This document shows, one piece after another, positions 4,435 to 23,514 of a stretch of 64,000 bases of DNA. Each line of letters begins with the position of its first letter. Position 1 is the first letter of the stretch. A program made the position numbers and the translations under genes. The stretch comes from Gemmatimonadota bacterium (GTDB lineage: Bacteria > Gemmatimonadota > Gemmatimonadetes > Longimicrobiales > Gaopeijiaceae), in NCBI GenBank assembly GCA_007121455.1, contig SKKN01000003.1, forward strand, positions 124,001 to 188,000, given 5' to 3'. Under the pieces are notes generated by a model. The model worked only from the letters and a program-made list of their open reading frames with translations. It ran no database searches and was not told the DNA's origin.

Positions 4435-4893
4435 TCATCTCCGCGGACCTTCAGGTCGCTCGATCAGGATCCGGCCGAGCTCCTCCGGTTCCGGGGACAG
4501 GTCGTCATCGCCGACCGGATACTCATTCAGCCTGAAAATGTATGCGATGAGGTCGGTGTACTGCTGCCTGGTGAGGCTCGCCGGTCGGTCGACCGGCATG
4601 GTGGCGCGGATATGCTCCAGGGCGTCACCGGCGGAGCGTCCACTCCAACGCGCCGTCCAGATCGTGCCCTGGAACTCGTCGTGGAAATGACACGTCGAGC
4701 ACTCCGCCTCGAAGGTTTCCTTTCCACGGTCTGCTTGCGCTTCCGTGTAGACGCCATGGAGTACGGAGCGCTGGGACCCGGGGTCCTGCGGTTCAGCCGG
4801 AGCGGCTGACGCCGCGAGGACGAGAGCTGCAGCGAGAGGTCCGACGAAGCCAGGAGAGGGTGGGCGGACCCGAGCCCGGAAATCGATTCGCAT
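4435..4893 (-). CDS. Small secreted monohaem cytochrome c
   Basis: 152 aa. Signal peptide of about 35 residues rich in Ala/Leu, then one haem-attachment site CSTCH (residues 66-70). The probable distal ligand is the Met in ATMPVDRPASL (about residue 99), followed by QYTDLIAYIFRLNEYP, a typical class I C-terminal helix. It lies 4 nt upstream of the PQQ dehydrogenase in the same operon and is its likely electron acceptor. The start at 4893 was chosen because the signal peptide begins there; the frame stays open further upstream but without coding character. It is clearly paralogous to the cytochrome at 18467-18979 (shared GVY-E-QA-RG-TF motif before the haem site). Confidence 0.85.
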   Translation of the reverse strand: MRIDFRARVRPPSPGFVGPLAAALVLAASAAPAEPQDPGSQRSVLHGVYTEAQADRGKETFEAECSTCHFHDEFQGTIWTARWSGRSAGDALEHIRATMPVDRPASLTRQQYTDLIAYIFRLNEYPVGDDDLSPEPEELGRILIERPEGPRR

Positions 4894-4982
4894 GCGGAAC
4901 CCCCTCTCCGTTCGTCGGTGGATCGAGTTCTGACCTCCGCCCCCCAGAGAGCGACCGGAGCAGGCGGGATCCTGGCAGCACG

Positions 4983-5243
4983 TTACCCGAGACTCGTTCG
5001 ATCCGTCAAGAACGCGCCCGACCCGGCTCGGAGGCCGGAGAGGGCCTCGTCGATGGGTGTGGCGCCGTTCAGGATCTCGAAGATCTTCCCGATCGTGGCC
5101 GGTTGGTCGATGCAGGCCACGAGAACCGAGGCGACGTCGTCGCGCGTGATGGTTCCTCGGACCTCGAGCTCTGCGGCGAGGTGGATCAGGCCGGTACGCG
5201 GCTCGTCGCTCAGCCTTCCTGGACGGACGACCGTGTGCTCCAG
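4983..5243 (-). pseudogene. C-terminal remnant of an atypical SDR / NAD(P)H-binding (NmrA-like) gene
   Basis: About 85 residues resemble the C-terminal third of small NAD(P)H-binding SDR proteins: TVVRPGRLSDEP, then GTITRDDVASVLVACID, then IGKIFEILNGATPIDEAL, ending shortly after. The N-terminal Rossmann half, which should contain GxxGxxG, is missing: upstream (5244-5380) no frame on this strand continues the similarity, and glnS begins at 5380 in the opposite direction. I read this as a truncated, dead gene. A real short gene starting at the ATG at 5279 is the alternative, but it would lack the cofactor site. Confidence 0.6.
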
Positions 5244-5379
5244 TCCACTTTTCCCCGTACCGCAGCGTGGATTCACCACAGCCGAGCTGGACCGACCTGC
5301 CGGACGCTACACCGAATCTCGGCGCGGTTTCCGGGGGCGAGGGCGCTGATCCGGTCCGACCTTCCTGTAGGACGCCGCG

Positions 5380-7857
5380 ATGCCTAGGTTTGAAGGCCCT
5401 CGAAGAAAGGAATCTGGATCGAAGCCCATGACCGAATCGGAAGGACAGGTACCGAGCAGGGCTGCGCCGCCCGAAAGCCCCCGCTCCTCGGAGCCGCCGG
5501 GGCCCACAGCGGGTGGTCGTGACTTCATCCGGCAGATCGTCGCACAGGACCTTGAAGCGGGGAGGAACGGGGGGCGGGTCGTGACCCGGTTTCCACCGGA
5601 GCCGAACGGCTATCTCCACATCGGTCACGCCAAATCGGTGGTGCTCAACTTCGGGATTGCGGGGGAGCACCCGGGCGGCCGGTGCCACCTCCGCTTCGAC
5701 GACACGAACCCGACCACCGAGGATCTCCACTACGTCGAGGCGATCCAGGAGGATCTACGCTGGCTCGGATTCGATTGGGGAGAGCACCTCTACTTCGCGT
5801 CCGAATACTTCGGGAGAATGTACGAATTCGCGGAGGAGCTGATCCGGAAGGGGCTGGCCTACGTCGACAGCCAGAGCGAGGAGGAGAGTCGAAAGAGCCG
5901 CGGGACGGTGACGGAGCCCGGGAGCGAGAGCCCGTACCGGAGCCGCTCGGTGAGCGAGAACCTCGAGCTCTTCAGGAAGATGCGGGAGGGCGTCTTTTCC
6001 GATGGTGCCCACGTGCTCCGGGGGAAGATCGACATGTCGTCCCCGAACATGCTCATGCGCGATCCGGTCCTCTACCGGATCCGGCACGCGGAGCATTACC
6101 GAACGGGAGGGGAATGGTGCATCTACCCGATGTACGACTTCGCCCACCCGCTGGAAGATGCCCTGGAGTGCGTCACGCACTCCCTCTGTACGCTGGAGTT
6201 CGAGAACAACCGGGAGCTCTACGACTGGGTCGTGGAGAGCACGAGCGTCGAATGCCGTCCGCACCAGTACGAGTTTGCTCGCCTGAACCTCGAATACATG
6301 GTGATGAGCAAGCGGAAGTTGGGGAGGTTGGTCCGGGAAGGGGATGTGCGAGGGTGGGATGATCCACGGATGCCTACGATCGCGGGCCTTCGGAGAAGAG
6401 GGGTCACGCCCGAGGCGATCCGGAACTTCTGTGAGATGATCGGCGTCGCGAGGTCCGATTCGCGCGTCGACATGGCGAAGCTCGAATTTGCGATCCGTGA
6501 CGACCTGAATCTACGCGTACCCCGCGTCCTCTGTGTCGCGAAGCCACTAAAGGTGGTGATCACGAGTTGGCCGGAGGGCGAGGTGGATTGGCTCGAAGCT
6601 CCCTACTACCCTCGGGACGTCCCCAAAGAAGGGGGCAGGGAGCTCCCCTTCTCCCGCACGCTCTACATCGAGCGAGAGGATTTCATGGAGGAGCCGGTCG
6701 CAGGGTTTCATCGGCTCGTGACCGGTGGAGAGGTGCGGCTCCGGTACGGCTATATCATCCGGTGCGAAGAGGCGGTGAAGGATGAGCGGGGCGAGATCGT
6801 GGAGCTTCGTTGCTCGCACGACCCCGAGAGCCGGGGCGGCACCGCAGCCGACAGGAGGAAGGTGAAGGGTACGATCCACTGGGTTTCGTTGGAACACGCG
6901 ATCCCGGTGGAGCTTCGGCTCTATGACCGGCTCTTCCGGGTTCCGGAACCGGACCTACGGCCGCCGGAGGAGGACGAAGAAGGGGAGAGCGATTTTCGGG
7001 CTTATCTCAACCCCGATTCCCTCGTCGTTCACCATGGCTGGATCGAACCTGCCGTGCGGGATCATCCCCCCGAGACGCGATACCAGTTTGAACGGGTGGG
7101 GTACTTCTGGCCGGACCCGCAGGACCGTCTCGAGGACGGGATGGTCTTCAACCGGACGGTCACCTTGCGGGATGGCTGGGCACGGAAAGAGGCCCGCCGC
7201 GGCGAGGACGGGGGCGCCGGAAGGAGGCTCGCCCGGAAAACCTCCCCCTCTCCGCCGGGTCGGAGGCCCGAGGTTCCGAAGGAGGTGAAGCTACGGGCCG
7301 ACTCGCTCAGCCGGGACTTCGGACTCGGCGAGGTCGATGCGGAGATCCTGGCTCGGGAGCCGGAGACGGAACGGTTCTACCGCCGTGCAGTCGGCTCGCC
7401 GGAGGGAAGCGGGTACGAGGGAGCGGTGGCGAACTGGATCATTCACGAGCTTCCACCCGTGCAGGGGGAGCGTGCTCTCGGCGACCTTCCTTTCGGTCCC
7501 ACCGAGCTGGCCCGCCTGGTGGAGCTCGTGGGCACGGAGGTCGTGTCGAGTCGGGGGGCCAAGCAGGTGCTCGAGGTTCTCGGACGGGAGGGGGGAAGCC
7601 CGGAGGAGATCGTGGAGCGGCTCGACCTCGCTCAGGTGCGTGATCCTGGAGCGCTGGTCGCCTTGATCGACGAGGTGATCGAGGCAAACCCCGAAAAGGT
7701 AGAGGAGTATCGGTCGGGCCGGCGGGGGTTGATCGGGTTCTTCATGGGGCAGGTCATGTCCCATTCCCAGGGAAAGGCGGACCCCGAGTTGGCAAAGCGG
7801 TTGCTCCTGGGAAGGCTCGAGGCATCCGGACCGTCCGACGAACCCGGAGGGGAGTAG
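5380..7857 (+). CDS. glnS: Glutaminyl-tRNA synthetase with YqeY/GatB-like C-terminal domain
   Basis: 825 aa, much longer than E. coli GlnRS (about 550). The class I core has HIGH (residues 80-83, in PPEPNGYLHIGHAK) and the KMSKS equivalent VMSKRKL (308-314), then the anticodon-binding beta-barrels up to about residue 610. After an arginine-rich linker comes a helical extension (about 645-815) ending GLIGFFMGQVMSHSQGKADP, the signature of the GatB/YqeY tRNA-binding tail. This fusion is known from Deinococcus GlnRS, where the tail helps bind tRNA-Gln. The enzyme charges tRNA-Gln in the cytoplasm. An ATG at 5428 is an equally good start: the first 45 residues are low-complexity and not conserved. 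nadE follows after 2 nt. Confidence 0.95.
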   Translation: MPRFEGPRRKESGSKPMTESEGQVPSRAAPPESPRSSEPPGPTAGGRDFIRQIVAQDLEAGRNGGRVVTRFPPEPNGYLHIGHAKSVVLNFGIAGEHPGGRCHLRFDDTNPTTEDLHYVEAIQEDLRWLGFDWGEHLYFASEYFGRMYEFAEELIRKGLAYVDSQSEEESRKSRGTVTEPGSESPYRSRSVSENLELFRKMREGVFSDGAHVLRGKIDMSSPNMLMRDPVLYRIRHAEHYRTGGEWCIYPMYDFAHPLEDALECVTHSLCTLEFENNRELYDWVVESTSVECRPHQYEFARLNLEYMVMSKRKLGRLVREGDVRGWDDPRMPTIAGLRRRGVTPEAIRNFCEMIGVARSDSRVDMAKLEFAIRDDLNLRVPRVLCVAKPLKVVITSWPEGEVDWLEAPYYPRDVPKEGGRELPFSRTLYIEREDFMEEPVAGFHRLVTGGEVRLRYGYIIRCEEAVKDERGEIVELRCSHDPESRGGTAADRRKVKGTIHWVSLEHAIPVELRLYDRLFRVPEPDLRPPEEDEEGESDFRAYLNPDSLVVHHGWIEPAVRDHPPETRYQFERVGYFWPDPQDRLEDGMVFNRTVTLRDGWARKEARRGEDGGAGRRLARKTSPSPPGRRPEVPKEVKLRADSLSRDFGLGEVDAEILAREPETERFYRRAVGSPEGSGYEGAVANWIIHELPPVQGERALGDLPFGPTELARLVELVGTEVVSSRGAKQVLEVLGREGGSPEEIVERLDLAQVRDPGALVALIDEVIEANPEKVEEYRSGRRGLIGFFMGQVMSHSQGKADPELAKRLLLGRLEASGPSDEPGGE

Positions 7858-12281: not shown

Positions 12282-14846
12282 ATGGCGCAGGCACAAGGCC
12301 CGAAGTTGAAGACGCCGGTCGGCGTAGCGGCGGTCGTCGCCGTGTTGGGCATGGCTCTCGTGGTGATGGGCGAGCAAGCCCAGGACGAGCGGGTCAATAC
12401 GCACGTGGCCGCGATGGAGGGATCTTCTTCCGCCCCAGACGGTGATCGGCCTTCGGCATCGGGTTCTTCGGAACTCGACGCCTTTTTGTTGGTGGACCGG
12501 TCCAATGACGTGCCTCCCGATGCGAGCGCCTCGGACGAAGCGTTGACGCGGGTCGTTCAGCGTCTTTGCGTGGCCTGCCACAACGACCAGTTGGAGACGG
12601 GGACCCTGTCGCTTCAGGGGTACGAGGTCGAGGCGGCAGTCGACCGGCCGGAGACGACGGAGAAGATCATCGCCAAGCTGCGGGCGGAGATGATGCCTCC
12701 TCCGGGTATGCCCCGTCCCGGCGGTGATACGCTGACGCTCCTCGTCGAAACGCTCGAGCAGAAGATCGACGACGCAGCAGCATCGACGACGGCCGGGGGG
12801 GAGCGATCCTTCCAGCGCCTGAACCGGGCCGAGTACGAGCGCTCCGTTCGTGACCTGCTCGGACTCGAGGTCGATGCCGGGAATTGGCTGCCGCTCGATA
12901 TGCGGATGGCGAACTTCGACAATATTTCCGACGCGCAGGTCCTGTCGACGACCCTTCTCGAGTCGTACTTGAACGCCGCCGCCGAAATCAGCCGGATGGC
13001 AGTGGGAGACGCCAGCGCTTCCCCGCGGGAGGCCGAGTACCGTGTACCTCGCTGGGTGACTCAGACGGAGCGGGTCGACGGCGCGCCCTACGGTACGCGT
13101 GGCGGGACCTCGGTGGAGCACACTTTCCTCGCGGACGGGGAGTACGTGTTCCAGCTTTCATTCCATCACGAGACGACAGGATCCCTGGTCGGTAATGCTC
13201 AATCCGCCCTCCACAGCGTGGAGTCCCCGGAGCAGATGGAGGTCTCGGTCAACGGTGAGCCCGTCGCCGTGCTCGACGTCGATCCTTGGATGCACGTGGC
13301 GAACGAAGGTGTCACGCTTCGCACCGAGCCGATCTTCGTCCCCGCGGGTTCGCAGCGCGTATCCGCAGCCTTCATTCGCAGACTCGAGGGGCCCGTTCAG
13401 GACATCGTGGCGCCGCATGAATGGTCGCTTGCCAGCACCGCGATTGCAGGCCGCTACGGGGTTATGTCGCTTCCCCACCTCCGTGATCTCACCATCATCG
13501 GCCCCGACAAGGTGACTGGGATCTCGGAAACGCCCGTCCGGGAGCGAATCTTCTCCTGCCGTCCGGACTCCCCGGACGAAGCGCGCCCCTGCGCCGAGCA
13601 GATCGTGAACGAGCTCGCGACCCAGGCCTACCGTCGCCCCCTTCACGATGACGAACTCGACAACCTCATGTCCTTCTATGAGCTGGGGGCCGACGATGGG
13701 GACTTCGAGATCGGGGTTCGCACGGCTCTGGAAGCGATCCTCGCCAGCCCTCACTTCGTCTTCCGTCTCGAGCGGGAACCGATGGGGCTCCAAGCCGGCG
13801 AGTTCTATCCGATCAGCGACCTGGACCTCGCATCCAGGATTTCCTTCTTCCTCTGGGGTCTGCCCCCGGACGAGGAGCTCCTGGGTCTCGCACGAGAGGG
13901 CGCCCTCTCGAGCGACGAGGTGCTCGAAGAACAGGTGTGGAGGATGCTCGAAGACCCGCGCTCCGAGGCGCTGGCCTCTCGATTCGCGGCGCAGTGGCTT
14001 CGCTTGCACGACCTCGACGGGATGCAGCCGGACGTCCGCCGTCACCCCGAGTTCCATGAACAGCTGAGTCGGGCGATGCGGCAGGAGACGGAGACCTTCT
14101 TCCACAATCTGGTGGTGGAGGATCGGAGTGTCCTGGAGCTGCTCACGGCGGATTACACCTTCGTGAACGAGCGCCTCGCTCGTCACTATGGCTTCGACGA
14201 CGTGGCGGGCGACCAGTTCCGAAGGGTCGAGTATCCAGACGATCGGAGGCGGGGCATCCTCGGCCACGGGGCGATCCTGATGTCCACGTCCCATGCCGGA
14301 CGGACCTCGCCGACGGATCGCGGCAAGTGGGTGATGGAGGTGTTGCTGGGCACGCCGCCCCCGCCTCCGCCGCCCGTGCCTGCGCTGGAGGAGACCTCAA
14401 GCTCCGAGGAAGGGCGGCAGTTGACGACCCGTGAGCGGATGGCGATCCACGCCGAGAACCCGGCGTGCAACGCCTGCCACCAGTTCATGGACCCGATCGG
14501 GATCGCCCTGGACAATTTCGATGTGACGGGCCGCTATCGCACGACGGACTACGGTTTGCCACTCGATACGCGCGGCCAGCTCTACGACGGGACCCAGGTC
14601 TCCAGCGCGGGTGAGTTGATCGATGCACTCCTCGAGCGTCCCATCCCCTTCGTCAGGACTTTCACGGAGAACATGATGGCCTACGCGTTGGGGCGCCGGA
14701 TCGAATGGTACGACAAGCCGACGGTGCGTGCGGTCTCCGCCCAGGCCGCCGCCGATGACTACAGAATGTCCAACTTCATCCTCGGTATCGTGCAGAGCGA
14801 CGAGTTCAGGATGAAGAGAGCGACGGGGATCGCGGACGACCGGTAG
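12282..14846 (+). CDS. DUF1592 multidomain protein with cytochrome-c-like haem sites
   Basis: 854 aa. A membrane anchor or signal (residues 12-30) leads to a planctomycete-type cytochrome domain with CVACH (96-100). Then come DUF1587 (about 130-200), an all-beta carbohydrate-binding-like insert (about 250-380), DUF1595 (about 425-490), DUF1592 (about 500-630), DUF1588 with a second CxxCH in PACNACHQFMDPIG (about 727-740), and DUF1585 at the C-terminus. The architecture is that of the large planctomycete/gammaproteobacterial proteins of unknown function. It should be periplasmic and able to bind one or two haems c. The DUF1552 gene follows after 106 nt, the usual partner. The GTAGCGGCGG-rich N-terminus is ordinary; the start is supported by family length. 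Confidence 0.9.
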   Translation: MAQAQGPKLKTPVGVAAVVAVLGMALVVMGEQAQDERVNTHVAAMEGSSSAPDGDRPSASGSSELDAFLLVDRSNDVPPDASASDEALTRVVQRLCVACHNDQLETGTLSLQGYEVEAAVDRPETTEKIIAKLRAEMMPPPGMPRPGGDTLTLLVETLEQKIDDAAASTTAGGERSFQRLNRAEYERSVRDLLGLEVDAGNWLPLDMRMANFDNISDAQVLSTTLLESYLNAAAEISRMAVGDASASPREAEYRVPRWVTQTERVDGAPYGTRGGTSVEHTFLADGEYVFQLSFHHETTGSLVGNAQSALHSVESPEQMEVSVNGEPVAVLDVDPWMHVANEGVTLRTEPIFVPAGSQRVSAAFIRRLEGPVQDIVAPHEWSLASTAIAGRYGVMSLPHLRDLTIIGPDKVTGISETPVRERIFSCRPDSPDEARPCAEQIVNELATQAYRRPLHDDELDNLMSFYELGADDGDFEIGVRTALEAILASPHFVFRLEREPMGLQAGEFYPISDLDLASRISFFLWGLPPDEELLGLAREGALSSDEVLEEQVWRMLEDPRSEALASRFAAQWLRLHDLDGMQPDVRRHPEFHEQLSRAMRQETETFFHNLVVEDRSVLELLTADYTFVNERLARHYGFDDVAGDQFRRVEYPDDRRRGILGHGAILMSTSHAGRTSPTDRGKWVMEVLLGTPPPPPPPVPALEETSSSEEGRQLTTRERMAIHAENPACNACHQFMDPIGIALDNFDVTGRYRTTDYGLPLDTRGQLYDGTQVSSAGELIDALLERPIPFVRTFTENMMAYALGRRIEWYDKPTVRAVSAQAAADDYRMSNFILGIVQSDEFRMKRATGIADDR

Positions 14847-14952
14847 CACCCCTCCGCGAACACTCGGTGAGGCAGGGCTCCGGGTGCGGGGCCGCGGAAG
14901 TTCAGGAAGTTGGAAGCCGACAGTTGACCCTTAGGTTGAGGAAGGCCCGAAC

Positions 14953-16371
14953 ATGAAATTCATCACCGGAAAGCACGTCCCCCGCCGTACGTTCCTCCGC
15001 GGCATGGGTGCAACGGTTGCCCTTCCGTTCCTGGACGCGATGGTCCCGGCAGGTTTCGGCTGGAGCCGCATGATCGACAAGATCGACCGTCCGCGCCTGC
15101 TGGCGATCGAGATGGTGCACGGGGCCGCGGGTGCGGAAACCGGGCTCGGGGCTCCCATGAACCTCTGGTCTCCGGCGGAGGTGGGCCGGAACTTCACGCT
15201 CAACTCGGACAGCGCCCTGAAGCCGCTCGAGGACTGGCGCGAGTACCTGACGATCATCAGCGATACCGACTGTCGCATGGCGGAGGCGTATCAGCCGGGA
15301 GAGGTCGGCGGAGACCACTTCCGTTCGAGTGCGGTCTTCCTGACCCAGTCCCATCCAAGGCAGACTGAAAGTTCGGACGTGTATGTGGGAACGTCCCTGG
15401 ACCAGATCTACGCCAGCCTCCAGGACACACCGATCCCGTCGATGCAGCTCTGTATCGAGAACATCGACCAGTCGGGAGGCTGTGCGTACGGATATAGCTG
15501 TGTCTATACCGACTCGATCAGTTGGTCCGCACCCAATACGCCGCTTCCGATGATTCGTGACCCGAGAATCGCATTCGAGCAGCTCTTCGGAGCGGGTGGT
15601 ACGGCCGAGGAGCGGGCGAATCGGATGAGGACCCGGGGCAGCATGCTCGACTGGATCGGCAACGAGATCGGGCAGCTTCAGAGGGAGCTCGGTGCAGCCG
15701 ACCGAAACCGTCTGGATGGATATCTCCAGAACGTGCGCGAGGTCGAACAGCGGATCCAGAGGATCGAGGCGCGGAACGCGAGCGGTGAGGTTCGCGAGAT
15801 TCCAGAGGCGCCTGCCGGTGTTCCGGATTCGTTCGCGGATCATGTGAAGCTCATGTTCGACCTGCAGGTTCTTGGATTCGAGTCGGACATGACTCGCGTG
15901 TTCTCCTTCAAGATGGGTCGGGATGCGTCCGCCCGGGTGTACCCCGAGAGCGGCACGGACCGGCCGTTCCACCCCGCCTCGCACCATGGGGGCCGGGAGC
16001 AGCAGTTGATGGAGTTCAACATGATCAATCGGTACCATGTGGCGATGCTGCCCTACCTCCTCGAGAGGCTCAATGAGGTTGTGGAGGGAGATAGCACGCT
16101 CCTCGACAAGACCGCAGTCGTCTACGGCTCTCCGATGGCGGACGGCAATCTCCATAACCATCGTCGCTGCCCGCTTCTCCTGATGGGTGGAGCGAACGGC
16201 CAGCTCGAAGGAAATCTCCACCTGCGGGCCCCTGCCGGGACGCCGATGGCGAACGTGATGCTGAGCCTCCTGCATTCGCTCGGCGTCGACGACATGAGCA
16301 GCTTCGGGGACAGCACCGGCACCTTTTCGCTCGCGCCGACTCCGTCGCGGTCGCTGGCAGACGTACGGTAG
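14953..16371 (+). CDS. DUF1552 family protein with Tat signal
   Basis: 472 aa. Twin-arginine signal: RRTFLRGMGATVALPFLDA at residues 10-28, so it is exported folded and may bind a cofactor. The rest fits DUF1552 (PF07586), which is distantly related to DUF1501/sulfatase-like secreted proteins: an early EMVHGAAGAETG block, a middle helical segment with LDGYLQNVREVEQRIQRIE, and a C-terminal part with FHPASHHGG and LLLMGGANG. The reaction is unknown. Genes of this family almost always lie beside DUF1592 genes, as here, implying a two-protein complex or pathway. Downstream after 49 nt is the ankyrin protein. Confidence 0.9.
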   Translation: MKFITGKHVPRRTFLRGMGATVALPFLDAMVPAGFGWSRMIDKIDRPRLLAIEMVHGAAGAETGLGAPMNLWSPAEVGRNFTLNSDSALKPLEDWREYLTIISDTDCRMAEAYQPGEVGGDHFRSSAVFLTQSHPRQTESSDVYVGTSLDQIYASLQDTPIPSMQLCIENIDQSGGCAYGYSCVYTDSISWSAPNTPLPMIRDPRIAFEQLFGAGGTAEERANRMRTRGSMLDWIGNEIGQLQRELGAADRNRLDGYLQNVREVEQRIQRIEARNASGEVREIPEAPAGVPDSFADHVKLMFDLQVLGFESDMTRVFSFKMGRDASARVYPESGTDRPFHPASHHGGREQQLMEFNMINRYHVAMLPYLLERLNEVVEGDSTLLDKTAVVYGSPMADGNLHNHRRCPLLLMGGANGQLEGNLHLRAPAGTPMANVMLSLLHSLGVDDMSSFGDSTGTFSLAPTPSRSLADVR

Positions 16372-16420
16372 GGCCACGGAAGGGTCGTTTACGGTTGACA
16401 CGCACCATCGGGAGGAGACC

Positions 16421-18109
16421 ATGAGAGGCAGCCGGTACGGAAAAGTGCTCGGTATGCTGTCGATGCTCGTACTGTTCGTCGCGGCTGCTCCCTCCTCGAC
16501 ATCTCCGGTTGCCGATGCCGTGATGCAGGGCGACAAGGACGCCGTCCGCGCTCTGCTTGCACAGGGCGCCGATGTCAACGAAGCGCAGGGCGATGGAATG
16601 ACTGCGCTTCACTGGGCGGCGGAGCGAGGGGACGCGGACGTCGCGGAAATCCTGATCGGCGCCGGCGCCGAGGTTGATCGCGTCACCCGCCTCGGCGCGT
16701 ACACGCCGCTGCATCTGGCGAGCAAGAGCGGCCATGGATCGGTCGTCGAGCTCCTGGTGGCAGCCGGAGGCGATGCGAACGCGGTGACCCAGACCGGGGA
16801 CGTGACCGCGCTCCACTTCGCGGCTCGCGGTGGTAGCACGGTGGCCGTGCGGGCGCTCCTGGCCCACGGCGCGGATCCAAACGCACAGGAGTCGCAGTGG
16901 GGCCAGACCCCTCTCATGTTCGCAGCCGTGCAGAATCGAACCTCCGCGATCGAATTGCTGCTCGAGCACGGCGCTGATCCGAGCATTCCCGCCCGTGTAC
17001 TCGACATACGGGAATGGGACCGAATCGTCTCCATGGTCCGCGCCGGAGAGGACTTCGAGGCGGCCCGGCGGGCGGTCGCGGAGGACCCCGAAGAGGACGA
17101 TGACGACCCGAACACACCGGTGTCTTATACCCAGATGGTGGGAACGTACGGGGGGCTCACGCCGCTTCTGATGGCCGCTCGAGACGGACATAAGGCCGCT
17201 GTGCGAACCCTGCTGGAGGGTGGCGCCGATCTGAACGAGGTCAGCGCGGGGGACGGCACGAGTGCGCTCCTCATCGCCACGATCAACGGCCACTTCGACC
17301 TGGCGCTGGAACTCCTCCAGGGTGGAGCGGATCCGACCCTTGCGAGCGAGGCTGGGGCGACACCGCTGTACACCACTTTGAACAAGCAGTGGATTCCTGC
17401 GACTCGGCACCCGCAGCCGACCCACTACCTCTATCAAGACACTTCATACCTGACATTGATGGAGGAGTTGCTGAAGGCGGGAGCGGATCCGAATGTCCGG
17501 CTGAAGACGTCTCTCTGGTACACCACCTTCGGACGAGACCACCTCGGTGTCGATCGCATGGGAGCCACACCCTTCTGGCGGGCCGCTCATGCAGTCGACC
17601 TCGATGCCATGAAGCTCCTTGTCGAGTACGGTGCCGACCCGAATATCCCCACGAAGGCACCGCCCGCGCGAGGGGGCGGATACGGGCAGGAGGATGACAC
17701 GGACCATTCCGGGCTGCCGCCGATGGAGCCGGGTGGGCCAGGGGCGTATCCGATCCATGCTGCGGCAGGTGTCGGTTACGGCCAGGACTTCGTCGGGAAC
17801 GATCACCGCCATAGGGAAGATGGTTGGCTGCCGGCCGTCCGGTACCTGGTGGAGGAGCACGGCGCCGATGTGAACATGCGGGATCACAACGGCTTCAACC
17901 CGATTCATCATGCCGCTGCTCGAGGAGACAACGAACTGATCGAGTATCTCGTCGCCGAAGGAGCGGATGTCACGGCCGTGGGGCGACGGGGCCAGACTAC
18001 TGCCGACATGGCGAACGGCCCCGTCCAGCGGGTTCCCCCGTTCCTGAGCACTGTTAGGCTGCTCGAGGGCCTTGGGGCCGTGAACAACGACAACTGTCAG
18101 TCCTGCTGA
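16421..18109 (+). CDS. Secreted ankyrin-repeat protein
   Basis: 562 aa. Signal peptide (residues 1-27, core MLVLFVAAA), then about ten ankyrin repeats with the GADVN/GADPN and TPLHxAA signatures: DGMTALHWAAERGDADVAE, AYTPLHLASKSGH, VTALHFAARGG, QTPLMFAAVQN, LTPLLMAARDGH, TSALLIATINGH, ATPFWRAAHAVD, AYPIHAAAGVG, FNPIHHAAARGD. An acidic spacer (EEDDDDPN, about residue 225) and longer Gly/Pro-rich insertions break the stack. The protein ends NDNCQSC, a C-terminal CxxC. A protein-binding scaffold in the periplasm is the likely role. It is the third gene of the DUF1592-DUF1552 unit (49-nt gap) and is followed by a strong stem-loop. Confidence 0.9.
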   Translation: MRGSRYGKVLGMLSMLVLFVAAAPSSTSPVADAVMQGDKDAVRALLAQGADVNEAQGDGMTALHWAAERGDADVAEILIGAGAEVDRVTRLGAYTPLHLASKSGHGSVVELLVAAGGDANAVTQTGDVTALHFAARGGSTVAVRALLAHGADPNAQESQWGQTPLMFAAVQNRTSAIELLLEHGADPSIPARVLDIREWDRIVSMVRAGEDFEAARRAVAEDPEEDDDDPNTPVSYTQMVGTYGGLTPLLMAARDGHKAAVRTLLEGGADLNEVSAGDGTSALLIATINGHFDLALELLQGGADPTLASEAGATPLYTTLNKQWIPATRHPQPTHYLYQDTSYLTLMEELLKAGADPNVRLKTSLWYTTFGRDHLGVDRMGATPFWRAAHAVDLDAMKLLVEYGADPNIPTKAPPARGGGYGQEDDTDHSGLPPMEPGGPGAYPIHAAAGVGYGQDFVGNDHRHREDGWLPAVRYLVEEHGADVNMRDHNGFNPIHHAAARGDNELIEYLVAEGADVTAVGRRGQTTADMANGPVQRVPPFLSTVRLLEGLGAVNNDNCQSC

Positions 18110-18183
18110 TCCCATCATCGCGGGGAAGTCGCGCGACGGCGATCGCGGGGCTTACGTGTCAGGAGGGCGCAGGGCGACGATGA

Positions 18184-18223
18184 AGGGGCCGGTCGGGGGT
18201 GAAAAACCCCCGGGCCGGCCCCT
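18184..18223 (+). terminator. GC-rich stem-loop after the ankyrin gene
   Basis: Arms aggggccgg and ccggcccct pair, the stem continues through a short imperfect step to ggggg/ccccc, and the loop is tgaaaaa. The stem is about 16 bp, 75 nt past the ankyrin stop. There is no T tract, so it may terminate only weakly or protect the 3' end of the mRNA. Confidence 0.5.
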
Positions 18224-18334
18224 GAGCCGTTCAGGGCCCCATAGAGACACCGTGCGCGTCGCTTTCCGTCGCGTGTCTGGAGTCATTCCGGCGTGCTCGC
18301 TTCTCCCCTCCGTCCATCTTGGAAATCGCGGGCA

Positions 18335-18362
18335 TTGAACAAAATGCCAGAACGAATATTTT
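18335..18362 (+). promoter_or_regulatory. Probable promoter of the second small cytochrome c gene
   Basis: TTGAAC (18335-18340), 16-nt spacer, TATTTT (18357-18362). It lies in an AT-rich island between the stem-loop of the ankyrin gene and the cytochrome gene, about 80-100 nt before the likely start codon. The wider stretch 18110-18448 has no other gene that I can see. Sigma-70-like consensus is assumed. Confidence 0.4.
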
Positions 18363-18466
18363 TACTTCGGCTCCGATGTGTCCTCGCGGATTGAAACCAA
18401 GAGAGCTCCTTCTTGGTACGACTATGGGTAGACCGGCATCGAAAACGTATGCAGAGGCAAGCGATC

Positions 18467-18979
18467 ATGTTGAAGGGAGCGAATAGCAGCGAAGGCAGGA
18501 CCGTCGTTCGGGCGATCCGGCGCGTGGCGCAAGCGACGGGAGCGTGGCGGTCCCGTGGCGGTGCGTCGTTGGCGTGTCTGCTTCTTTTCGCCGGATTTCT
18601 CCATGCTCCGGTCTCGGTCGAGGCCCAGGAGAGCCGCTCCGCGCTCGAGGGAGTGTACAGCGAGGAGCAGGCGGAGCGGGGCGAACGCACCTTCCGCGCC
18701 TTCTGCGCCACATGCCACACGGAGTCCGAATTCCACGGAGATCACTTCCAGCGGCAGGTGGGTGGGGATTCGGTCGACCGATTCTTCGACTACGTGCGGT
18801 TCAACATGCCGCAGGATTCCCCTGGCTCCCTCTCCCGGCGTAACTACGTCGACGTGATGGCCTACATCCTCAAGCTCAACGGCTATCCGGCCGGTGAGGA
18901 GGATCTCCCGAGCGCTGCCGGGGGGCTCCAGCAGATCCACTTCTCGGAATTCGACGAGAATCCGGGCGGCTCGCGCTGA
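18467..18979 (+). CDS. Small secreted monohaem cytochrome c (paralogue of 4435-4893)
   Basis: 170 aa from this ATG. Long basic n-region, then a hydrophobic signal core (ASLACLLLFAGFLHAP) cleaved near VEAQE. One haem site, CATCH, preceded by LEGVYSEEQAERGERTFRAF. The likely distal Met is in FNMPQDSPGSLS, followed by YVDVMAYILKLNGYPAG. Spacing and flanking motifs match the cytochrome beside the PQQ dehydrogenase. An in-frame ATG at 18449 is an alternative start. Its own promoter and a strong terminator bracket it, so it is probably transcribed alone. Its place after the DUF1592/DUF1552/ankyrin unit suggests it is the electron carrier of that locus. Confidence 0.85.
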   Translation: MLKGANSSEGRTVVRAIRRVAQATGAWRSRGGASLACLLLFAGFLHAPVSVEAQESRSALEGVYSEEQAERGERTFRAFCATCHTESEFHGDHFQRQVGGDSVDRFFDYVRFNMPQDSPGSLSRRNYVDVMAYILKLNGYPAGEEDLPSAAGGLQQIHFSEFDENPGGSR

Positions 18980-19073: not shown

Positions 19074-20153
19074 TCAGGGGTTCGAGGTGAGGGGAGGGTC
19101 CGCCAGGTCGAACTCGGGGGCTCCGTAGAGCGCGAACCATTCGTCGACTTGGTCGGGGTCGTCCGTGAAGGCGAGCGAGAGGAGCAGAAGCAACCGCGTC
19201 TTTTGCGGCATCAGGTTGTCGCGGCCGGACCGGAAGCGGCTCTGGGTCCGAAATATGACCCCGTCCGCCTCCGCGGCCTCCCGCGCCTCCCGGAAATACG
19301 GACTCCCTCCGGCGAGGACGATCCCTTCCACACCGGCCTCGTGGAACGCCGTGATCGCCTCCGGTCCCGCTCCCTGGTATCCGACCACGATCTCCGCGCG
19401 AGGAAGTTCTTCTTTCGCGACCCGGCTCAGGTCGAAGGGCGTCCGCCACTGCGCGGGGTCATCGCAGCGCTGAATGCGGGGAGGAGCGCGAAAAACCCGG
19501 ACATCACGCTCGTCGACGTAGCCGAGGGTACCCTGGAGCCGGGAGATGAACGTGTTCATGCGATAGTCATCCGACTTCCACGCTTCCTTCGCAGCGTGGA
19601 TCTCGTCGTTCATCAGGATCACGGTGCCGAAGCACGTGGTCCTGCCGCTCGCCGCCAGCGTGATCGCGTTGAAGAGGTTCGCGTGGGCGTCCGTTCCGAT
19701 CACCGTCCAGGGTCTCATGGCGCCCGTGAGGACGACCGGCTTCGGGCTCTGCACCGTGAGGTCGAGCCAGTAGGCGAACTCCTCCATCGTCGTGGTACCC
19801 ACGGTGACGACCACGGCGTCTGCGGTCTCCAGCGCCTCCTCGACCGCGAAGGTCAGGTCGTAGTAGTCTGCGACCTCGTATCCCCCTGAGCCCCGATTGT
19901 CGAACTGAACGGTGCTGACGTCGGCGACCTCGCCGATCTCCGGCTGGAGATCCGCCAGCATCTCCTCGATCGGCAACTGTCCCGCGCGGTAGCTCTGAAA
20001 GCTCGTGCGGGTCTCCGAGGTTCCCGCAATCGTGCCTCCGGTCGCGACGATGGTGACGCGTGGCACCTGCTCTTGAGCGTTGGCGGGGGCCGCGAGGAAC
20101 AAGATCAGGGCGAGTGCCGGAAGCATTCGGATTGCCCAGTGTAGACGAGTCAT
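19074..20153 (-). CDS. ansB: Periplasmic L-asparaginase (type II)
   Basis: 359 aa. Signal peptide (MTRLHWAIRMLPALALILFL, cut after ANAQE), then the asparaginase domain. Nucleophile Thr in ATGGTIAGT (first conserved block), second block VVVTVGTTTMEEFAYW containing the catalytic Thr and acid, then TGAMRP. The second domain has GIVLAGGSP. It hydrolyses asparagine to aspartate and ammonia outside the cytoplasm. The typical TGTDTMEETA of block two reads TVGTTTMEEFA: the Asp that normally sits between the two threonines is Thr here, so activity on asparagine should not be taken for granted. GGAGGAAAGGC lies just upstream of the ATG at 20153. The DUF1028 gene is 134 nt upstream on the same strand. 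Confidence 0.85.
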   Translation of the reverse strand: MTRLHWAIRMLPALALILFLAAPANAQEQVPRVTIVATGGTIAGTSETRTSFQSYRAGQLPIEEMLADLQPEIGEVADVSTVQFDNRGSGGYEVADYYDLTFAVEEALETADAVVVTVGTTTMEEFAYWLDLTVQSPKPVVLTGAMRPWTVIGTDAHANLFNAITLAASGRTTCFGTVILMNDEIHAAKEAWKSDDYRMNTFISRLQGTLGYVDERDVRVFRAPPRIQRCDDPAQWRTPFDLSRVAKEELPRAEIVVGYQGAGPEAITAFHEAGVEGIVLAGGSPYFREAREAAEADGVIFRTQSRFRSGRDNLMPQKTRLLLLLSLAFTDDPDQVDEWFALYGAPEFDLADPPLTSNP

Positions 20154-20287
20154 GCCTTTCCTCCAGTATGTGCCGTGGTTCGCGCCCCCCTCTCCCGGGG
20201 GAGAGACGCTAGACCTCACGGCGGCGTTCGGCAAGCGGCCTGGAGGGGCGTTGAAAGCCCCCCCCGGCCGGGTGAGCTCCACAGCGG

Positions 20288-21355
20288 TCACCTTCGGACC
20301 ATCACGACCTCGAGAAGCTTCTCCCGCACCTCTTCGGCCAGCCCCCGTTCCTCGAGTTCTCTCCAGAGCAGATCCACCAGCTCGTCATCGACGAGGCCGA
20401 GAGGTGCGCCCTGCCCGGCACTCGCGAGTCCCGCACGGGCGCGGAAGTCGTCCACCGCGTGGATCGCCTCCGTCGTGTAGAGCAGCGCATCGTCCTCGTC
20501 CGGATCGAAATCCTCCTCATCCGGACGGAAGATCCCGAGCGCATGCAGGATCACCTTGAGCTGCAGGACGTCCCCCCCGCTCTCCTGCTCGAGCGTGCGG
20601 TAGCCCAGGGTCTGGGAGACCGTGTTGTATACCCTCCGGATCTCCTGGACGGGCGTCGGATGCTCACAGGCGTGGATCTGGACGGTCATCCCGTCCGTCC
20701 GACGAGCCATGCCGGGCCGCGGGTCGGCGACGATCACGGCGGCAGACTGCAGCCTCCCCCGTCGGGAGTCCCCTCCCAGCTCCTGCCCAGCAGAGAGCGC
20801 GTCGATGAGACGGTCCGCAAGGTGGCGGGGGGAGCCTTCGCTCGCCTCGAAGTTCCGGGCGACGGCCTCCAGGACCTCAGGTCCGACGAGCGTGTTGCCC
20901 TGTGCCACGTAGTTCGTGCCGGCAAGATGGCCGTTCCACGTGCTCGTGCTGTCGCCCGTGTGCTGAGCGGACCGGCCGTCGAGACCGATGACGCCCACCT
21001 GGCGGCGATCCGGCCGGTCGTCCTCCGCAATCCTCGCCGAGAGCGCTTCCGCAGGATCGACGCCCTCCTCGAGCAGGTCCAGCAACTCGTGTCCGTATTC
21101 GGTTCGGGTGGAGGCCTGCGTGGCGACTGCACCGACACCCGCACGAACCCAGGGGACTCCGTTGCCGACGCACACGTTCCGCGTCGTCACCGCCACTCCG
21201 GATTCGCCTGTCGCGGGATCGACGGCTGCGATGGAGAATGTGTGGAACAGGGGCTCCTCCTCCCACGCCATGGGTTCCTGAGCCGCGGCCGGCACTGCCA
21301 GGAAGAGGAGGATGAACAGGGCAGGACCGTAGAGACGTGCACCGACTTCGATCAC
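20288..21355 (-). CDS. DUF1028 protein with C-terminal peptidoglycan-binding-like domain, secreted
   Basis: 355 aa from a GTG at 21355, which has AAGGAG 7 nt upstream; a TTG at 21394 would be longer but has no such site. Signal peptide (LYGPALFILLFLAVPAAAQ), then DUF1028: HTFSIAAVDPATGESGVAV, GAVATQAST, LLDLLEEGVDPAEALS and YVAQGNTLVG. DUF1028 is related to Ntn-hydrolases but has no proven reaction. The last 120 residues (GGDVLQLKVILHALG, then a helix-rich end) resemble the peptidoglycan-binding-like tail often fused to DUF1028. A second DUF1028 protein is encoded at 51235-52320 with a different tail. Confidence 0.85.
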   Translation of the reverse strand: MIEVGARLYGPALFILLFLAVPAAAQEPMAWEEEPLFHTFSIAAVDPATGESGVAVTTRNVCVGNGVPWVRAGVGAVATQASTRTEYGHELLDLLEEGVDPAEALSARIAEDDRPDRRQVGVIGLDGRSAQHTGDSTSTWNGHLAGTNYVAQGNTLVGPEVLEAVARNFEASEGSPRHLADRLIDALSAGQELGGDSRRGRLQSAAVIVADPRPGMARRTDGMTVQIHACEHPTPVQEIRRVYNTVSQTLGYRTLEQESGGDVLQLKVILHALGIFRPDEEDFDPDEDDALLYTTEAIHAVDDFRARAGLASAGQGAPLGLVDDELVDLLWRELEERGLAEEVREKLLEVVMVRR

Positions 21356-21583
21356 TGCTGGACTCCTTCGGCTCGGGTTTGTTGCTCGACGCAATCGGAT
21401 GGCTCGTGGCCGCTCCGGTTCCCCGCACGGTAGGACGGAATGGCAGGTGAAGGCAACGGAGGGTCACTGCCACATGGATCGTTGCGGGTTCATCTCTCGG
21501 CTTCCATGTTGAATCCAGGGTCCCGAATGTCCGTTCCCCGTGGACGGGTCAAGGTGGGACAGGACGAATCAAAGGAGGGGATC

Positions 21584-22900
21584 ATGGGCCGTAAGCCGCT
21601 CCGCTCTACCGATGACGCGCAGCCGGGTGGGACGCCTTCGCCGGAGGCGACTGAGGTGCCGGAGAAGCGGCCGGGCTCCGGCCGAATGGGCCGCCGCACC
21701 TTCGTCGTCGGAGCGGCTGGAATCCTCGGGGCCGGGGTGCTGAAGGGGCTCGCGGATCCGGCTCACGCCCAGGAGGCGCAGGTCATCGTCCCGGATGACC
21801 CCACGAAGGTCCAGGGACCGACTGCAAGCCTCGTGGGAGGACGCTCTCCGTTCGAGCAGCCCGAACGGTTTCTTCACCCCCAGTTGACGTCTTCGCGCAC
21901 TCCGCTGCAGGAGCTCCACGGCACGATCACTCCCTCCGACCTGCACTTCGAGCGGCACCACGGTGGAGTGGCGCACATCGATCCCGACAAGTACTCGCTC
22001 CTCGTCCATGGCCTGGTCGAACGGCCGATGGTGTTCACCCTCCGGGATCTGAAGCGATTCCCTTCCCAGTCGACGGTCTACTTCATGGAGTGCTCGGGCA
22101 ACTTCCCGAGAAACGCCTCCGAGGACACGCTTCCGCAGCAGATCTGCGGCCTCACGAGCCAGAGTGAGTGGACCGGAATCCCGCTCTCCACGCTCTTCCG
22201 GGAGGTGGGGGTTCTGCCCGAGGCCACCTGGTTCCTCGCGGAGGGGCAGGACGCGGCCGTCATGACGCGGAGTATTCCGGTGGAGAAGGCATGGGACGAC
22301 GCGATGATCGCGTACGGCCAGAACGGGGAGGCGCTGCGGCCGGAGAACGGATATCCGGCGCGACTCTTCCTTCCGGGCTGGGAGGGGAATGCAAGCGTGA
22401 AGTGGCTTCGCCGGATCGAACTCTCGGACGGACCCTTCCAGACCCGGGAGGAGACGAGCCGCTACACCGACCCGCTGAAGGACGGAAAGGTGCGGCAGTT
22501 CAGCTTCGTGATGGACGCGCGTTCCATCATCACCTCCCCCTGCTATCCGGACCGGGTGGAGCCCGGTTGGCTCGAGCTCCGGGGGATCGCGTGGAGCGGA
22601 CGCGGACGAATCCGATCGGCGGAGATCAGCTTCGATGAGGGAGCGACGTGGCACGCGGCCGACCTGCAGGAGCCGGTCCTCCCGAAGGCCCACGTCCGCT
22701 TCCGGTACATGTGGAAGTGGGATGGGAGGGAGGCCACCGTCCTCAGCCGAACGACGGACGAGACCGGCTACGTTCAGCCTACGCAGCAGGAGCTGATCGA
22801 GGCACGCGGGGTCGGGACGCGCTACCACCTGAACCCGATCACCGGATGGCGGATCCGCACCGACGGCTCCGTCGTCTACAGGACGGAGGAATGGGCATGA
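21584..22900 (+). CDS. soxC: Molybdopterin sulfite dehydrogenase, SoxC-like
   Basis: 438 aa from the ATG at 21584, which directly follows AAAGGAGGGG. Twin-arginine signal GRRTFVVGAAGILGAG, so the protein is exported folded with its Mo cofactor. The sulfite-oxidase core has the Mo-ligand Cys in FMECSGNFPRN, LFLPGWEGNASVKWLRRIE, and a C-terminal Ig-like dimerisation domain (EISFDEGATW). Known enzymes oxidise sulfite (SorA) or act in the Sox complex as SoxC. The next gene overlaps and encodes a cytochrome c, as in soxCD/sorAB. No other sox gene is in view, so free sulfite is the more likely substrate. Confidence 0.9.
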   Translation: MGRKPLRSTDDAQPGGTPSPEATEVPEKRPGSGRMGRRTFVVGAAGILGAGVLKGLADPAHAQEAQVIVPDDPTKVQGPTASLVGGRSPFEQPERFLHPQLTSSRTPLQELHGTITPSDLHFERHHGGVAHIDPDKYSLLVHGLVERPMVFTLRDLKRFPSQSTVYFMECSGNFPRNASEDTLPQQICGLTSQSEWTGIPLSTLFREVGVLPEATWFLAEGQDAAVMTRSIPVEKAWDDAMIAYGQNGEALRPENGYPARLFLPGWEGNASVKWLRRIELSDGPFQTREETSRYTDPLKDGKVRQFSFVMDARSIITSPCYPDRVEPGWLELRGIAWSGRGRIRSAEISFDEGATWHAADLQEPVLPKAHVRFRYMWKWDGREATVLSRTTDETGYVQPTQQELIEARGVGTRYHLNPITGWRIRTDGSVVYRTEEWA

Positions 22901-23514
22901 GGACGGCCGGGAGCCTCGCCGTCCTTGCTGCCTTCGCCGGCTTCGGATGCGGCGGGGGTGACGCACAGTCGGGCGGCAATGGGGAGTCCTCCCTCCAGGG
23001 CGTAGCCAGCTCCGAGCCGATTCCGGAGAGCTTCGAGCTGGGCCGGACCGCCACGGACGAGGAGATCGACACGCTTGCGATTGCAGTGATGCCGGACGGC
23101 CGCGGACTTCCCCCCGGAGGCGGAACTCCCGGAGAGGGCGCGGAGATCTACGCCGCGCAGTGCGCCGCGTGCCACGGTCCCGAGGGGGAGGGCGGGGGGG
23201 GAGGCCAGCTCGTGGGACGGATTCCCGGTGACCCGTTCGATTGGGGCGATGGGATGCAGGGGCCGCGCACGATCGGGAGCTTCTGGCCTCACGCGACCAC
23301 CGTGTTCGACTACACCCGACGGGCCATGCCCTGGGACCGCCCCGGGAGCCTCTCCGATGACGAGGTATACGCCGTCACCGCATACCTTCTCTTCCTGAAC
23401 GAGCTGATCGGGGAAGAGGACGAAATGAACGCGGAGACCCTCCCACGAGTGGTCATGCCCGCATACGGCCGATTCGTACCGGACGACCGCGAGGAGACGA
23501 CGAGGGTGCATTGA
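22897..23514 (+). CDS. Cytochrome c subunit of the sulfite dehydrogenase, SoxD-like
   Basis: 205 aa. ATG overlaps the upstream stop (ATGA) and has GGACGGAGGA 6 nt before it; a second ATG 6 nt earlier is possible. Lipoprotein-type signal ending FGFGCGGG. One haem site CAACH (YAAQCAACHGPEGEG), with a likely distal Met in RRAMPWDRPGSLSDDEVYAVTAYLL. It should take electrons from the molybdenum enzyme and hand them to the respiratory chain. It overlaps the next gene, whose TTG start lies inside its stop. Confidence 0.9.
   Translation: MRTAGSLAVLAAFAGFGCGGGDAQSGGNGESSLQGVASSEPIPESFELGRTATDEEIDTLAIAVMPDGRGLPPGGGTPGEGAEIYAAQCAACHGPEGEGGGGGQLVGRIPGDPFDWGDGMQGPRTIGSFWPHATTVFDYTRRAMPWDRPGSLSDDEVYAVTAYLLFLNELIGEEDEMNAETLPRVVMPAYGRFVPDDREETTRVH

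Follow-up and report, generated by a model that had tools for sequence, protein, structure and literature searches.

Gene content of the locus

Positions 12282-18979 of a 64,000-nucleotide stretch from a Gemmatimonadota bacterium (contig SKKN01000003.1; the whole stretch is called the window hereafter) carry four genes in line, which encode a large DUF1592 protein, a DUF1552 protein, an ankyrin-repeat protein and a small cytochrome c (Table 1). An open reading frame check and a Pfam search confirmed the coordinates and the family assignment of all four frames, and the third-position G+C content is high in each. The window belongs to a 3.53 Mb assembly of 80 contigs (G000), whose relatives are metagenome-assembled genomes (MAGs) of Gemmatimonadota. 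A preliminary description of the sequence had taken the four exported proteins as one locus. All four are genuine genes; the first three constitute a cassette under strict conservation, and the gene for the small cytochrome lies outside it. In the DUF1592 protein, the Pfam domains PSD4 and PSCyt3 score 154 and 113 bits, respectively (curated cut-offs 23 and 27), and the DUF1552 protein, in which the HxxSHH motif is present, matches PF07586 with 264.9 bits (cut-off 30).

Table 1. Features of the locus, given as positions in the window.
Feature	Position	Strand	Remarks
DUF1592 protein, 854 aa	12282..14846	+	Pfam PSD3-PSD5-PSD4(DUF1592)-PSCyt3-PSD2; two CxxCH; di-haem candidate
CxxCH no. 1, CVACH, residues 96-100 of DUF1592 protein	12567..12581	+	
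Predicted beta-sandwich of DUF1592 protein, ~residues 249-407	13026..13502	+	Structure model
CxxCH no. 2, CNACH, residues 729-733, inside PSCyt3 of DUF1592 protein	14466..14480	+	
DUF1552 (HXXSHH) protein, 472 aa, Tat-exported	14953..16371	+	Pfam E 1.5e-78
Twin-arginine motif RRTFLR (RRTFLRG), residues 11-16 of DUF1552 protein	14983..15000	+	
H-x8-T-Q motif HFRSSAVFLTQ, residues 122-132 of DUF1552 protein	15316..15348	+	
HxxSHH motif HPASHH, residues 340-345 of DUF1552 protein	15970..15987	+	
Ankyrin-repeat protein, 562 aa, exported	16421..18109	+	Hydrophobic N-terminus; third cassette member
NNDNCQSC C-terminal tail of ankyrin protein	18083..18106	+	
Small exported cytochrome c	18413..18979	+	One CxxCH at 18704-18718; Cytochrome_CBB3 E 1.3e-6, just over cut-off

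A conserved three-gene cassette

We scanned 84,980 species genomes using a DUF1552 alignment and obtained, among the matches listed, 77 loci with flanks of up to 10 kb. By their titles, nearly all of these belong to Gemmatimonadota, besides a few Acidobacteria or Vicinamibacteria and three apparently mis-binned labels. Cassettes typical of Gemmatimonadota occur in L027, L044 and L046 under the titles Euryarchaeota or Gammaproteobacteria, which are probably wrong. A further 40 regions were picked by Pfam family alone across genera of Gemmatimonadota. After removal of duplicates, the pooled set comprises 161 distinct DUF1552 genes. Almost all of them come from Gemmatimonadota, and a few bear the label Acidobacteria. 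All counts rest on MAG-rich collections and on relatives of this subfamily; other phyla were sampled but not counted.

Where there was room downstream, an ankyrin gene follows DUF1552 in 85 of 87 cases in the scan loci, and DUF1592 precedes it in 92 of 93; 84 of 87 ankyrins end in a CxxC motif. The regions chosen by Pfam family gave the same picture, with the ankyrin gene directly downstream in 39 of the 40 and 1.8 kb off in L130. In the pooled set, DUF1592 lies immediately upstream of DUF1552 in 151/153 cases and the ankyrin gene immediately downstream in 141/149. This alignment of genes is far above chance. The preliminary description had made its proposal depend on whether the ankyrin gene accompanies the pair in other genomes, and the gene neighbourhoods show that it does so consistently. 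Among the other flanking genes, no family was seen next to the triads in more than 14 of the compared loci.

Genome G000 itself contains four DUF1552 and four DUF1592 genes. Three of these pairs, those of the window, L010 and L011, are followed by an ankyrin gene (9595-11427 in L010, 11599-13482 in L011) whose product ends in NNDNC(Q/V)SC, and the fourth is split across two contig ends (L012, L009), with no ankyrin gene after it. DUF1552 was found in 40 of 101 sampled Gemmatimonadota genomes, with up to 12 copies each.

Pairwise distance matrices drawn up for each of the three proteins over 124 triads correlate with one another at r 0.82-0.83, as compared with at most 0.21 after shuffling. In many loci, two cassettes are arranged head to tail. 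For all 36 genes compared in such tandems, the nearest relatives of the DUF1552 and ankyrin proteins reside in other loci; the tandem cassettes are therefore old and have been inherited whole, with no exchange of partners between the copies.

The ankyrin protein and its CxxC tail

The most diagnostic feature of the locus, which the preliminary description had passed over, is how the ankyrin protein ends, namely in NNDNCQSC. A CxxC tail is found in 128 of 132 complete ankyrins, and its second Cys is the final residue in 109 of these 128. Conservation extends to the surrounding positions, which read N-N-[HND]-x before CxxC and [S/A/G] preceding the last Cys. In a reverse test that made no use of DUF1552, we searched 295 genomes of the class with a 24-base degenerate pattern for NNDNCx(S/T)C. 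The pattern matched 23 genomes, the reversed control pattern none. Each of the 20 tail sites examined proved to be an ankyrin C-terminus, and 18 lie in full triads; as for the remaining two, one stands after a DUF1592 gene without DUF1552 and the other lies too close to a contig end for its neighbours to be seen. DUF1552 is missing at L031 (9161-13746) and L164 (5583-8473), where the ankyrin gene comes directly after DUF1592.

Several roles are conceivable for the tail: it may bind metal or haem, act as a redox pair or form a disulfide cap. Its invariance suggests a role more specific than that of a scaffold, which is one possible function and the one that had been put forward before. A plain structural scaffold, in which a disulfide between the two Cys would close off the last repeat or shield the C-terminus, is nonetheless a reading to be taken seriously, if still short of probable: CxxC pairs of exported proteins often form disulfides, and divergent cassette ankyrins (L120, L153, L229) lack the tail, so that some cassettes do without it. 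On the other hand, a position at the extreme end, with no residue after the last Cys in most cases, and the conserved flanking residues exceed what a cap would need. Since the ankyrins of a Novosphingobium plasmid and of the divergent Gemmatimonadota members L120 and L130 are without CxxC, the ankyrin partnership is wider than the tail.

Ankyrin proteins serving a haem enzyme have a precedent. Passages in two papers (PMC7567364, PMC9426514) describe ankyrin partners of catalases, namely AnkB with KatB in Pseudomonas, Cj1386 with KatA in Campylobacter and the ank-katE pair of Leptospira; according to these passages, the ankyrin helper is required for enzyme activity, probably by permitting haem binding. 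As in the cassette, provided that DUF1592 is a haem protein, the ankyrin gene there adjoins the gene of a haem enzyme. The enzyme is a different one, however, and the likeness is an analogy, not a homology.

A bolder reading, less likely than not, is that the cassette ankyrin is an active subunit for cofactor handling or redox exchange, in which the CxxC with the nearby His, Asn and Asp residues would deliver haem or metal to, or exchange disulfides or electrons with, a di-haem DUF1592 enzyme. We know of no report of a CxxC tail in AnkB, Cj1386 or the Leptospira ankyrin. If this reading were true, the ankyrin protein would be dedicated to the maturation of periplasmic oxidoreductases from a large family that is still uncharacterised, and if it loads or docks the haem enzyme, the catalase-ankyrin theme would reach a second enzyme class.

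The small cytochrome c is a neighbour

The cytochrome c gene at 18413 had been counted as the fourth part of the system. This assignment fails, because a homologue of the cytochrome is present in only one of the 77 related loci, about 5 kb upstream of that triad, and a gene for any CxxCH protein starts within 2.5 kb downstream of only 13 of 132 related triads. We found no relative of it at the other three G000 pairs. The cytochrome is thus a chance neighbour of the cassette, although it may still accept electrons, like any soluble cytochrome c.

That it serves as the dedicated electron carrier of a four-part system is quite improbable. Such a role would agree with its export, its single CxxCH and its position on the same strand some 300 bases past the ankyrin gene, and the gene might have been recruited in this lineage alone. 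Apart from its absence from the other three G000 pairs and from all but one of the related loci, it speaks against a dedicated carrier that the cytochrome family is common (48 of 58 related genomes), yet occurs near DUF1552 only loosely, in one genus and about 9 kb off. Its nearest paralogue in the window is a cytochrome c-domain frame on the opposite strand that adjoins a pyrroloquinoline quinone (PQQ) dehydrogenase. This dehydrogenase, a complete PQQ-dependent alcohol/glucose dehydrogenase, and the cytochrome c-domain reading frame lie side by side at 2442-4430 (-) and 4435-5730 (-).

The DUF1592 protein

The two CxxCH motifs that had been recognised in the large protein are indeed there, and both are invariant in 52 DUF1592 homologues, down to 37% identity, together with the Cys pair C426/C437 and M138. 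The latter residue is part of an MMPPP motif downstream of the first CxxCH and is a candidate haem ligand. After the second CxxCH there is no invariant Met or His in these 52 homologues, which leaves room for an open, catalytic site; the PSCyt3 haem may be of this kind. Because the haem motifs are invariant and the ankyrin gene co-occurs consistently, an exported redox system, as proposed in the preliminary description, is likely on the basis of sequence.

An AlphaFold model of the DUF1592 protein is good (pLDDT 85, pTM 0.85). Its sole large beta domain is a predicted beta-sandwich (Table 1), for which the best fold matches in the PDB are BcsB and carbohydrate-binding domains of the CBM6/35/36 type, all of them weak (best E about 2e-3). 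Over its whole length the protein has no fold relative in the PDB beyond the beta-sandwich and chance matches. By sequence, neither the DUF1592 nor the DUF1552 protein has a relative in the PDB, the matches obtained being short helical chance hits (E 0.03-0.07).

The DUF1552 protein

The Tat (twin-arginine translocation) signal noted earlier for the DUF1552 protein was confirmed as an RRTFLRG motif, and a Tat-like RR is found in 140 of 141 triads. Its former reading as a sign of a redox cofactor finds no support. Because the predicted structure of the DUF1552 protein resembles the alkaline-phosphatase/sulfatase fold, which binds metal ions and not redox cofactors, the Tat signal is silent on redox chemistry, and we reject it as proof of such a cofactor. 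The signal would fit the export of a folded metalloprotein.

This fold was taken from an AlphaFold model of fair quality (pLDDT 71, pTM 0.79), whose best-scoring PDB fold matches all belong to the alkaline-phosphatase superfamily: sulfatases, LtaS and phosphonate (monoester) hydrolases. The sequence HFRSSAVFLTQ stands in the same register as the sulfatase motif C-x-P-S-R-x3-L-T-G. In the nucleophile region, sulfatases of the same phylum have C-x8-T-G and most examined DUF1501 proteins H-x8-T-G, whereas 140 of 141 triads have H-x8-T-(Q/G/H) in their DUF1552 protein; the relatives examined from Novosphingobium and Sphingobium have H-x8-T-G. Profile comparisons revealed the same register, although the matches are short and weak (E 0.0023 over 26 columns with sulfatases, E 0.047 over 41 columns with DUF1501). 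With the alkaline phosphatase superfamily, from which its top fold matches come, the DUF1552 protein shares the x8-T spacing at the nucleophile place, but it differs in having His for the Cys nucleophile, in its low TM-scores and in having a haem-protein gene as partner. From model and sequence together, membership in this superfamily is likely, if not proven. We reject the identity of an ordinary sulfatase on account of the nucleophile motif: the formylglycine-sulfatase motif C/S-x-P-S/x-R is absent, with His in its place in all but one of the triads.

One could also envisage a hydrolytic core, with the DUF1552 protein as an alkaline-phosphatase-superfamily hydrolase of sulfate, phosphate or related esters and the DUF1592 protein as an accessory binder whose haems sense or tune. 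The fold matches to sulfatases, LtaS and phosphonate hydrolases would agree with this, as would the resemblance of the DUF1592 sandwich to carbohydrate-binding domains, the finding of He et al. (PMC5615132) that PSCyt and sulfatase genes are neighbours in Verrucomicrobia and the lack of any PF00884 sulfatase over the cut-off in genome G000. Nevertheless we regard it as unlikely, since the DUF1552 proteins carry His at the nucleophile place, both DUF1592 haem motifs are invariant, and relatives in Sphingobium adjoin cytochromes c′ and b561.

Relatives in other bacteria

A Novosphingobium plasmid (L229, 4401-9599) carries a DUF1592-DUF1552-ankyrin triad, unannotated in the gene table of the collection, with a shorter ankyrin that lacks CxxC. 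Three Sphingobium plasmids carry genes for cytochrome c′ and cytochrome b561 after the pair (L247, 6806-10993; L248, 5345-9535; L232, 6172-10363). The order of DUF1592 and DUF1552 is the same as in the cassette, but the DUF1552 proteins are only 20-24% identical, there is no ankyrin gene, the cytochromes are dedicated and the DUF1592 protein retains the PSCyt3 haem motif only. Among the independent hints at redox activity of the pair, these clusters are the best; since they adjoin cytochromes and keep the PSCyt3 motif alone, they also point to the N-terminal haem in the fused DUF1592 protein as an electron exit, as if an external cytochrome replaced it in Sphingobium. In their vicinity we noted genes for TonB receptors, AraC regulators, and acyl-CoA dehydrogenase (in L247 and L248) or Rieske and flavin oxygenases. 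Most of the Sphingobium records are isolates from tomatine-treated soil (PMC10653915); the paper on tomatine degradation mentions neither DUF names nor cytochromes.

In Planctomycetes and Verrucomicrobia, PSCyt3 genes usually adjoin a family of unknown genes according to He et al. (PMC5615132), and the PSCyt3/DUF1592-DUF1552 pairs of these phyla have the Pfam domains and gene order of the cassette. On a Planctomyces plasmid, the order is DUF1587, DUF1592, DUF1552, DUF1080, so that DUF1080 comes next to the pair, where the cassette has its dedicated gene for a CxxC-tailed ankyrin. A further parallel is the planctomycete DUF1501 gene, which often adjoins a gene for a WD40 repeat protein (PMC5587647). 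The DUF1501 family has the H-x8-TG motif in common with DUF1552 and a repeat protein as neighbour, but the repeat fold is a different one and the profile match with DUF1552 is the marginal one given above. Within the collection of papers searched, none mentions both DUF1592 and DUF1552, and there is no functional study on DUF1592, DUF1552 or PSCyt.

A model for the cassette

We propose, with about even confidence, that the cassette works as a single periplasmic system composed of a di-haem oxidoreductase (DUF1592), a DUF1552 protein of alkaline-phosphatase fold and an ankyrin helper. In this model, the DUF1592 protein would be a c-type oxidoreductase whose beta-sandwich holds the substrate. 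Its PSCyt3 haem would represent the universal core, and the N-terminal PSCyt1-like haem would hand electrons to the respiratory chain via whichever soluble cytochrome c is present. The Tat-exported DUF1552 metalloprotein, with His at the nucleophile place of sulfatases, may bind or prime a substrate for the haem protein, one that would be anionic and resemble a carbohydrate or a terpenoid. The ankyrin protein would load, stabilise or dock the complex as a dedicated helper, with the C-terminal CxxC as its working end. The cassette itself, its co-inheritance, the invariant haem and CxxC motifs and the Tat signal were read from the sequences, while the DUF1552 fold and the DUF1592 beta-sandwich are model predictions; haem loading, complex formation, the direction of electron flow, the substrate class and the function of the ankyrin protein are what we infer.

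Several observations weigh against this model. The best fold match of the DUF1552 model has an E-value of 1.7e-4 and a probability of 1.0, yet the TM-scores of full-length matches are just 0.31-0.39, at a model pLDDT of 71. An AlphaFold model cannot show haem, and the matches of the beta-sandwich are weak. The correlation of the distance matrices is no proof of contact, because shared species history contributes to it. The divergent cassette ankyrins L120, L130 and L229 are without the CxxC tail. Finally, 8 of 149 pairs, including one of the four in G000, have no ankyrin gene directly after them, and therefore the ankyrin protein is dispensable in some cassettes or shared. Among these eight exceptions, four (L016, L037, L049, L154) stand directly before the DUF1592 gene of another set, one is frameshifted and one has a doubled DUF1552. 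The tandem sets at the four loci look as though a single ankyrin serves two pairs.

Alternatively, the ankyrin protein might inhibit a periplasmic enzyme that could cause damage, or keep it in check in the manner of an immunity protein, as its dedicated, adjacent and co-inherited gene would allow. This is most unlikely, given that some pairs do without the gene, that DUF1592 and ankyrin genes occur together without DUF1552 at L031 and L164, and that no toxin-like feature is present.

DUF1592 and DUF1552 are present in many environmental bacteria, without a known reaction. The ankyrin partner and its diagnostic CxxC tail now define a three-gene unit to express rather than two orphan domains, and the Sphingobium and Novosphingobium members offer culturable hosts as well as hints at electron acceptors and substrates.

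Neighbouring genes

Downstream of the locus, at 19074-21394 (-), a type II asparaginase-like gene and a DUF1028 gene overlap by four bases; both products are apparently exported. A gene for a SoxC-type sulfite dehydrogenase (494.7 bits, cut-off 420) is located at 21440-23514 with a cytochrome c gene overlapping its end, and the two represent a separate periplasmic redox unit.

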